Shown: positions 29,006 to 30,770 of the stretch, in pieces
Layout: each line of letters opens with the position of its first letter
Numbering within the stretch: the stretch's first letter is position 1
From: an uncultured Ruminococcus sp.
Lineage (GTDB): Bacteria > Bacillota > Clostridia > Oscillospirales > Acutalibacteraceae
Reading direction: 5' to 3'
DNA: 41,226 nt
Assembly (NCBI GenBank): GCA_905233145.1
Contig: CAJODI010000002.1
Location: 1 to 41,226, forward strand
Program-made: the position numbers and the translations under genes
Notes under the pieces: model-generated
Database searches by the model: none
Seen by the model: only the letters and a program-made list of their open reading frames with translations
Told to the model about the DNA's origin: nothing

Positions 29006-29049
29006 ATTTTGAAAACGTTTAAAATCTTTATGCAACACAGCGCAATAGC

Positions 29050-29100
29050 AACGCAAAAGCATTTATGGAAACAAGATCCAACCATAAACGCTTTTGCGTT
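29050..29100. repeat. 19-bp-arm palindrome 3' of the four-helix-bundle gene
   Basis: AACGCAAAAGCATTTATGG (29050-29068) / CCATAAACGCTTTTGCGTT (29082-29100), one mismatch that is a possible G-U pair. Confidence 0.75.
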
Positions 29101-29107
29101 AGCTTCA

Positions 29108-29467
29108 CTATTTATTATAATTTAATTTCACTGTGTTTATTGAAGAAATCAACATTCGTCTTATGCTTCCACAGTCTGTTTTATGTTTCCTATACTGTTC
29201 GTGTGATATGTAATCTGTTCGATACAATAATTCGAGCCAATACTCACTTTCATAGCATTCTTTTAATGCAATCTGCATTTTTGAAATAAAATCCGCTTTA
29301 CCTTGAGCATATTTTGATTCGTGAATATTTGCTCCAATGCTTGTTCCGCTTCGCAACAATTGATTAACTAAAACCGCTTCTTTATGATTTTGCTTTATGT
29401 GTTTGCATAAATTCACAATATCAACAGCAAAATCCTTGGCTTTATCGAGCATTATACTTTCTGACAT
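29108..29467 (-). CDS. Four-helix-bundle protein (23S rRNA intervening-sequence protein / S23 family; fold shared with DGR Avd)
   Basis: DKAKDFAVDIVNLCKHIKQNHKEAVLVNQLLRSGTSIGANIHESKYAQGKADFISKMQIALKECYESEYWLELL is the family signature. ATG at 29467 preferred over TTG at 29470. Confidence 0.92.
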   Translation of the reverse strand: MSESIMLDKAKDFAVDIVNLCKHIKQNHKEAVLVNQLLRSGTSIGANIHESKYAQGKADFISKMQIALKECYESEYWLELLYRTDYISHEQYRKHKTDCGSIRRMLISSINTVKLNYNK

Positions 29468-29469
29468 CA

Positions 29470-29511
29470 AAAATCACCTCAATCAAATTATATCACGATT
29501 GAGGTGATTTT
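29470..29511. promoter_or_regulatory. 15-bp perfect palindrome overlapping the RBS of the four-helix-bundle gene, with a -10-like sequence in the loop
   Basis: AAAATCACCTCAATC (29470-29484) / GATTGAGGTGATTTT (29497-29511). Minus strand loop contains TGATATAAT (extended -10); GAGGTG RBS lies in the 3' arm. Confidence 0.7.
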
Positions 29512-29525
29512 AAAAGCTTTGATAA

Positions 29526-29732
29526 GCGAATTTAGCTAAATTGTCGCTGTGCGACAGCTAAATTATTCAATTTCATTGAATAGCTAAATTTTGCGAATGA
29601 TCGCAAAGCTAAATTAAATTCACCATATGGCTTGCGAAGCAAATTTAGCTCCGAAAGGAATTTAGCTTGCGTAGCAAATTTAGCTCGCGTAAGCGAATTT
29701 AGCTTTATATGCTCGCGTAAGCGAATTTAGCT
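29526..29732. repeat. Array of AGCTAAATT motifs alternating with variable mini-hairpins
   Basis: AATTTAGCT (+) at 29642, 29659, 29677, 29696, 29724; AGCTAAATT (+) at 29534, 29556, 29582, 29607. Intervening hairpins include GTCGC-TGT-GCGAC, ATTCAAT-TTC-ATTGAAT, TTGCGA-ATGA-TCGCAA, TCC-GAAA-GGA, TGC-GTA-GCA. Confidence 0.88.
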
Positions 29733-29738
29733 CTTTTA

Positions 29739-30770
29739 TCAGCCGAGTTCAGCAAAATACTTGATTGTTCTTACCATCTGGCTTGTGTATGAGTTCTCGT
29801 TGTCGTACCATGAAACAACCTGAACCTCATAAAGATCGTCGGCGATCTTTGAAACCATTGTCTGAGTTGCGTCAAAGAGTGAACCGAATCTCATACCGAT
29901 AACGTCGGAGGAAACAATCGGATCCTCGTTATAGCCAAAGGACTCGGAAGCAGCAGCCTTCATAGCAGCGTTGATGCCCTCAACTGTAACATCTGTGCCC
30001 TTAACAACAGCTGTGAGGATTGTTGTTGAGCCTGTGGGAACAGGAACACGCTGAGCCGAACCGATGAGCTTGCCGTCGAGCTCGGGAATTACAAGACCGA
30101 TAGCCTTTGCAGCACCTGTTGAGTTAGGAACAATGTTTGCAGCGCCGGCTCTTGCACGTCTGAGGTCGCCCTTTCTGTGAGGACCGTCAAGGATCATCTG
30201 ATCACCTGTGTAAGCGTGGATTGTGCTCATGATACCGCTCTGGATCGGAGCGTATTTATTGAGTGTGTCAGCCATTGGAGCAAGGCAGTTGGTTGTGCAT
30301 GAAGCAGCAGAAATAATCTTGTCATCAGCTGTGAGAACCTTCTCGTTTACGCTGTATACAATTGTAGGAAGATCTTTGCCTGCGGGAGCAGAAATAACAA
30401 CCTTCTTTGCGCCGGCGTCAATGTGAGCCTGGCTCTTCTCCTTTGAGCAATAGAAGCCTGTACACTCGAGAACAACATCAACACCAAGCTCGCCCCAAGG
30501 AAGCTCTGCAGCGTTTGGCTTAGCATAAATTGTGATTTCCTTACCGTCAACGATGATTGAATTCTCGCCTGCCTCAACAGTGTGGAGATTCTCACCGATT
30601 GTACCGCAATAGCCCTTCTGAGCTGTGTCGTACTTAAGAAGGTTAGCGAGCATCTTGGGATCTGTAAGATCGTTGATAGCTACTACCTCATAGCCCTCTG
30701 CGCCGAACATCTGTCTGAAAGCGAGACGACCGATACGGCCAAAGCCGTTAATTGCAACTTTTACTGACAT
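29739..30770 (-). CDS. gap: Glyceraldehyde-3-phosphate dehydrogenase
   Basis: [41 protein letters not shown] active site; [16 protein letters not shown]. Confidence 0.98.

Follow-up and report, generated by a model that had tools for sequence, protein, structure and literature searches.

Open reading frames of the S23 (IVP) family have long been known from palindromic intervening sequences (IVSs) in rRNA genes, and it has been suspected that they belong to a mobile element (PMC4990558). The IVSs of 23S rRNA in Coxiella and Leptospira are small elements with complementary ends that carry an S23-family ORF, replace the loop of a hairpin and are sporadically distributed, and S23 has been reported to form a homopentameric ring (PMC4990558). 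Gut-1 RNA (Rfam RF01706; Weinberg et al. 2010, PMC2864571) is a noncoding RNA candidate that was not classed as cis-regulatory, and in 2010 it was known only from human gut metagenomes. In Beggiatoaceae, short degenerate 7-nt words (the TAACTGA repeats) are repeated between genes (PMC4679880); they are not known to be linked to S23. A function has been lacking for S23/IVP proteins since their discovery in rRNA intervening sequences and for Gut-1 since 2010, and where dispersed heptanucleotide repeats come from is likewise unexplained. The STRRs of cyanobacteria are also heptanucleotide repeats lying between genes. The association described below connects S23, Gut-1 and such repeats in one directly testable hypothesis.

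The locus studied here is an array of short hairpins separated by a constant word (called a comb below), in a 41,226-nt stretch of DNA (the window) from an uncultured Ruminococcus sp. Its neighbours are gap on one side, and an S23 gene followed by a Na/H exchanger gene on the other. Like the rRNA IVSs, the window element carries an S23-family ORF, and elements of its kind resemble them in small size, in complementary arms, in apparent entry at hairpin loops and in sporadic distribution. It is, however, intergenic (Rfam finds no rRNA in the window, so its S23 gene is not inserted in an rRNA gene), its arms consist of 7-nt repeats, and there are many copies per genome. In combs, S23 lies 3' of the closed structure; IVS-like complementary ends that enclose the ORF are seen at S23 genes with plain heptamer arms. 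The likeness to the TAACTGA repeats lies in the short repeated words, while the arms found here are inverted, paired and tied to one gene family.

The preliminary description held that no known description covers the array, which is true of the whole, for which the literature found holds no description, and not of one half. The 77-nt Gut-1 consensus (UGAAAU-h1-GUGAAAU-h2-GUGAAAU-h3-UGAAAU) is the left half of combs of the GUGAAAU type, and four combs exceed the Gut-1 gathering threshold of 50 bits (L257, 87.6; L259, 67.1; L247, 56.8; L254, 52.1), the last two being linked to S23. The window has no Gut-1 match at the gathering threshold or at E up to 1; it shares the layout of three variable hairpins, with the constant 7-nt word GCTAAAT replacing GTGAAAT. 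Unlike the comb, Gut-1 was described with one arm and one 7-mer, and with no protein, right arm or mobility. Rfam searches of the window at gathering and permissive thresholds gave chance matches only, to the short hairpin over the S23 Shine-Dalgarno (SD) sequence and one to the array. Our search of the literature, confined to published papers and to a minority of the subscription journals, turned up no account of the whole comb, of the heptamer rule or of a link between S23 and Gut-1, and no paper that connects S23 to arrays of hairpins or heptamers. Two familiar kinds of array were considered and rejected: a CRISPR array, as the spacers are palindromic and the repeats opposed, and a REP/BIME element with conserved palindrome and GTAG/GGAG head, as the arms vary with pairing kept and the linker is the constant part.

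Layout and pairing of the comb

On the plus strand of the window, exact copies of AGCTAAATT are found at 29534, 29556, 29582 and 29607, and exact copies of AATTTAGCT at 29642, 29659, 29677, 29696 and 29724. These are the nine copies reported before, all exact (29534-29732) and oriented five against four around CATATG (29623-29628), as had been stated; a tenth, AATTTAGCT at 29529-29537, overlaps the first AGCTAAATT copy. The array and the stop codon of gap lie 6 nt apart. The self-complementary spacers GTCGC-TGT-GCGAC, ATTCAAT-TTC-ATTGAAT, TTGCGA-ATGA-TCGCAA, CC-GAAA-GG, TGC-GTA-GCA and CGC-GTAA-GCG had been listed correctly.

The orientation needs correction: the meaningful strand of the array is the minus strand, which codes for S23, not the plus strand used earlier. 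The covariance model R1, based on an alignment (A1) of 37 combs including that of the window, scores the plus strand far lower (7.0e-21) than the minus strand (Table 1). Read on the minus strand, the window array is M-h-M-h-M-h-M-h-M-h-centre-M'-h5-M'-h6-M'-h7-M', with S23 downstream. The family layout on the S23-coding strand is a leading hairpin h0, M1-h1-M2-h2-M3-h3-M4-h4, a partial fifth motif, the centre GGCGAATTT and M1'-h5-M2'-h6-M3'-h7-M4', then S23. The extra leading M-unit of the window replaces the h0 of most relatives.

Table 1. Features of the comb and its neighbours in the window
Feature	Position	Strand	Remarks
Whole comb array	29529..29732	-	Covariance model R1 match 29511-29741 minus, E=7.9e-52
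Extra leading unit: motif AGCTAAATT (29724-29732) and spacer CGCTTACGCGAGCATATAA	29705..29732	-	
M1 (29696-29704), hairpin h1 CGC-TTAC-GCG (29686-29695), M2 (29677-29685)	29677..29704	-	
Hairpin h2 TGC-TAC-GCA (29668-29676), M3 (29659-29667), hairpin h3 CC-TTTC-GG (29651-29658)	29651..29676	-	
M4 (29642-29650), hairpin h4 TGC-TTC-GCA (29633-29641)	29633..29650	-	
Centre AGCCATATGGTGAATTT	29616..29632	-	GGTGAATTT can pair with AAATTCGCT of M1/h1 (helix P1)
Inverted motif M1' (29607-29615), h5 TTGCGATCATTCGCAA (29591-29606), M2' (29582-29590)	within 29556..29615	-	
h6 ATTCAATGAAATTGAAT (29565-29581), M3' (29556-29564)	within 29556..29615	-	
h7 GTCGCACAGCGAC (29543-29555), M4' (29534-29542)	29534..29555	-	
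Hairpin of 15-16 bp just 5' of the S23 start	29470..29511	-	TATAAT in loop, Shine-Dalgarno GAGGTG in 3' arm
S23/IVP four-helix-bundle protein gene, ATG at 29467	29108..29467	-	PF05635 E=1e-28, TIGR02436 E=1e-33
gap (GAPDH), upstream host gene, outside the element	29739..30770	-	PF00044/PF02800

Three or more perfect terminal pairs are found in 59 of the 76 distinct spacers collected from 12 genomes (shuffles: mean 1.8, maximum 7), and the plus strand folds with z=-4.0. In A1, the 30 pairs of the seven named hairpins have 94.1% of their cells paired (61.7% when shuffled) and 323 double-changed cells (101 when shuffled); both-sided changes are found in 28 of the 30 pairs, and with the partners slid by 1-3 columns at most 46% are paired. 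The covariation of the arms is overwhelming, and the earlier suggestion of selection on structure rather than sequence holds. Because the base adjoining the constant word covaries too (T-A, G-C, C-G, A-T), the constant core is the 7-nt word GCTAAAT.

The centre also pairs with the end of M1 and the 5' arm of h1. This helix, P1, covaries in the family (AAATTCGCC/GGCGAATTT, AAATCCACC/GGTGGATTT, AAATAAATC/GATTTATTT and ATATTCGCC/GGCGAATAT), being 98.9% paired with 21 double-changed cells compared to 4.7 when shuffled. Since P1 and h1 compete for the same arm, two alternative folds are suggested. The loops of the two arms are mirror-like: the left arm has TNC/TNNC loops (51), the right arm GNA/GNNA loops (24). 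A tandem G.A mismatch is present in 13 hairpins of the right arm but absent from the left arm, and no hairpin has its T.C counterpart; at least in the right arm, the strand that folds is thus more likely to be the S23-sense one. The proposed complementarity of the two opposed motif sets is kept even when the motif itself changes. M2 and M4' are 95.7% paired across word types, which is weaker evidence than P1 because word types cluster by descent. Combs without S23 (solo combs) retain paired arms.

Linkage to S23 genes and the heptamer words

The array had been tied, with some reserve, to the adjacent gene for a four-helix-bundle protein (E=2e-34 to PDB 2RLD), and this link is strong. Out of 80 loci with close relatives of the window S23, taken from a scan of about 85,000 genomes, 55 have a motif array within 400 nt directly 5' of S23; motif density is 14.45/kb in these 400 nt, 1.28 downstream and 0.19 elsewhere. 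When a genome scan with R1 was compared to a separate PF05635 scan, 15 S23 genes proved to lie at most about 110 bp from a comb, and 14 of these have a comb 5' of the gene and on its strand. S23 need not be present in cis, since some genomes have more combs than S23 genes. At one locus (L073), S23 is enclosed by two opposed arms; in the window, the comb closes upstream of S23.

The covariance-model search proposed in the preliminary description shows that the motif/hairpin alternation recurs in other genomes. R1 finds combs in 34 of 98 related genomes and in 50 of 291 genomes of the class, with none to about twenty matches per genome, and the unit order h1-h7 is kept across many genera. A viral collection yielded seven contigs, of which only one (L231, IMGVR_UViG_3300018494_004344) has a genuine comb, at its end, the others having other kinds of repeats. 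The 25 plasmid records of S23 all have <60% identity and include no close comb-type S23.

Combs with the same hairpin order use AGTTATATT, AGTGATATT, GTGAAAT, ATGAAAT or GATGAAATC, and combs with other words at S23 genes use GTTATAT, GTGATAT, GTGAAAT or ATGAAAT. This is an unusual way to evolve: a word repeated at least eight times changes in concert, in nearly all copies and both arms, and the hairpins between drift in sequence. Transitional combs were found at two loci (L249 and L250). Mapped on the S23 tree, the word label changes 19 times compared to 44 when shuffled, a clustering inflated by near-copies. Among relatives, no clear enrichment was found for a candidate AATTTCAT array; ATGAAAT combs were found later by structure.

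Heptamers are not confined to combs. With no motif given beforehand, 60 of the 75 regions upstream of S23 have some 7-mer five or more times, and none of the 66 control windows does. Among 33 S23 loci from the same taxonomic order, 32 have heptamer arms or combs (25 with period-7 arms, 23 of them on both sides, and 7 with combs), and the remaining one is close to a contig end. Period 7 is found in 49 of 52 arms from 26 selected heptamer-type loci (1 of 106 controls), and in the flanks of 7 out of 8 S23 genes on plasmids of Treponema, Monoglobus, Nostoc, Planktothrix, Bernardetia and Chlorohelix. Near-universal as they are beside the S23 genes examined, these 7-letter repeats suggest what S23 may bind. 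One S23 locus (L193) stands halfway between plain heptamer arms (TTAACTA) and repeats spaced by hairpins (GTGAATAGTGAAGG).

The number of copies per heptamer arm clusters at 4.3-4.9 (some arms have many more). Counting partial units, the right arm of combs has five units in 34 out of 47 and the left arm five or six in 34 out of 47 (varying from 4 to 6). Both solved S23 structures (2RLD and 2GSC) contain five chains. The match between five units per arm and five chains, which is a correlation and not a demonstration, is the ground for proposing that an S23 ring binds the repeats. A profile search of PDB for a sequence link to the Avd protein of DGRs finds only 2RLD and 2GSC, so the analogy to Avd stays a lead.

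Copies, insertion sites and cargo

In the 2.07-Mb source genome the 9-mer has 53 exact copies and the reversed control word 4. Most of the 53 are in a few arrays (contigs C2, C3, C6, C28, C30 and C40), and 30 pairs of copies lie 5-25 nt apart (0 for the control). The other arrays sit between unrelated genes without S23 (their neighbours, by ORF reading, include EF-G-like, RarA/GlyA-like, amylase and spermidine/putrescine transporter genes), and the array is therefore a dispersed repeat, of which the window holds a copy with S23; most combs of this genome are solo. The array had been taken for a feature of the gap 3' UTR, which is not borne out, as it is one copy of a dispersed mobile element. 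The remaining three S23 genes of the genome are flanked by heptamer-arm repeats (TGAATAG, TGTGGAG). In contig C52, an S23 element (L027, 1358-1966) starts right after the CCA end of a tRNA, and a copy of the tRNA 3' end and the repeat is duplicated on the other side of S23. In contig C33 (L028), the S23 element is preceded by a duplicate that has no more than the beginning of another S23 gene, as though its copying had broken off early.

All-against-all comparison reveals discrete units with unrelated flanks, which start at about -200/-270 and run to a point just past S23, or past S23 and the next ORF. Two of them in one genome (L139 and L148) are 98% identical over 636 bp in different surroundings, and three cassettes (L159, L160 and L164) are 97-98% identical, including the following ORF, at unrelated places. 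When the flanks of these three are rejoined, they fold into terminator-like hairpins of about 10-12 bp (three sites, where one cross-join folded equally), and it therefore seems that the cassettes went into the loops of terminators. In most cases a long hairpin (mean stem 9.9 bp, compared to 4.3 bp in the control) immediately adjoins the first motif, often right after a tRNA or tmRNA. Comparing empty and occupied versions of a tRNA-Ser locus, native terminators follow the CCA in the empty ones; h0 may belong either to the host or to the element. For the window, nearly all other readable gap loci of the genus have no array, and most of these have terminator-like sequence shortly after gap; no precise empty site was obtained among them because the gap-nhaP neighbourhood is not conserved. 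A single comb unit stands right after gap, in the same place as the window array, at L208 (genome G007), either as a relic of an older insertion or as an independent insertion. At L133 and L137, the comb directly follows a coding frame and appears to provide its stop codon (AGC TAA).

The ORF after S23 varies among otherwise similar elements (NUDIX, HD, histidine phosphatase, methyltransferase and DJ-1). The small ORFs 3' of S23, some of which move with it, look like cargo. Short spacing or overlap between S23 and small downstream ORFs, including a CCA-adding enzyme, was seen at L117-L169. For the element we identified neither a transposase nor a reverse transcriptase, nor a target-site duplication that is fixed.

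Readings of the element

We consider it probable that the array, acting in cis, and the S23/IVP protein are the two halves of one small structured element, selfish and mobile, with the S23 pentamer reading the heptamers. The pentamer would recognise its own element by binding single-stranded copies of the heptamer (in RNA or in exposed DNA), with one heptamer per subunit and the hairpins looped out. The ring protein TRAP reads regularly spaced short RNA words (trinucleotides) in a complex with RNA; the proposed logic is alike, and as there is no sequence relation TRAP serves as an analogy only. Bound S23 would protect or present the element for copying, solo combs would be non-autonomous relics or trans-mobilised copies, and the enzyme activity that moves the element probably comes from the host or from a different element. 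A broader idea, which we put forward tentatively, is that S23/IVP genes across bacteria may be the core of one class of mobile elements, which the S23 pentamer recognises at a five-fold heptamer array, each subunit reading one heptamer; rRNA IVSs, Gut-1 and many dispersed heptanucleotide repeats would be parts of it, with the word changing along with the protein.

It seems unlikely to us that the comb is instead a structured 5' UTR through which S23 autoregulates its own expression and that of the following gene, with no function in mobility. Such a leader would explain the constant position and orientation 5' of S23, and the pairing of the h1 5' arm with either h1 or the centre looks switch-like. 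It would also fit the SD-masking hairpin (14-16 bp), which is strong in the window and three relatives (L122, L140 and L145) and at a loose threshold is not enriched over controls. In the L125 group, TATAAT is found right before h0, which would place the comb in the S23 mRNA. In some tRNA-linked elements, however, a TTGAAA-N17-TATAAT-like promoter (recognised by eye) lies between comb and S23, so that the comb is not in the S23 mRNA there. Most combs in the source genome and many elsewhere have no S23, and the copies are dispersed with defined ends, which also speaks against a leader.

We give little credence to the comb as a stand-alone noncoding RNA of the Gut-1 kind that has a host function and lies next to S23 by happenstance. 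The classification of Gut-1, left half of the GUGAAAU-type combs, as a noncoding RNA that is not cis-regulatory agrees with it, as does the pairing kept in solo combs, but the adjacency to S23 far exceeds chance, the same locus is patchily occupied between species, and copy number varies widely between genomes. Slightly less credible again is an element of the REP/BIME or attC kind, mobilised by an enzyme with DNA hairpins as its target, either an integrase or a transposase of the Y1 (IS200/IS605) type. Here, too, a hairpin follows a constant short word, orientations are opposed and insertion is beside or in terminator hairpins, and the loops of both arms would suit compact DNA hairpins; REP and attC, however, do not have such variable arm sequences, and what accompanies the comb is an S23 gene instead of a transposase gene. 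Neutral microsatellite-like expansion by polymerase slippage at a palindrome, which the C6 array (direct tandem copies, seven near-identical units) and long heptamer runs in some S23 flanks might recall, is highly improbable given the compensatory changes in nearly all hairpin pairs, the conserved hairpin order and the tight linkage to one gene family.

Three further observations concern the S23 genes. The SD-masking hairpin could, by analogy with some transposase genes, silence S23 in read-through transcripts. The S23 genes at L316, L317 and L320, located between hsdS and hsdR, cas2 and cas1, and drmD and pglX, respectively, are insertions inside plasmid defence gene clusters. In the window, an imperfect inverted repeat (AACGCAAAAGCGTTTATGG...CCATAAATGCTTTTGCGTT, 29046-29105) directly follows S23 and overlaps the listed start of the Na/H exchanger ORF.
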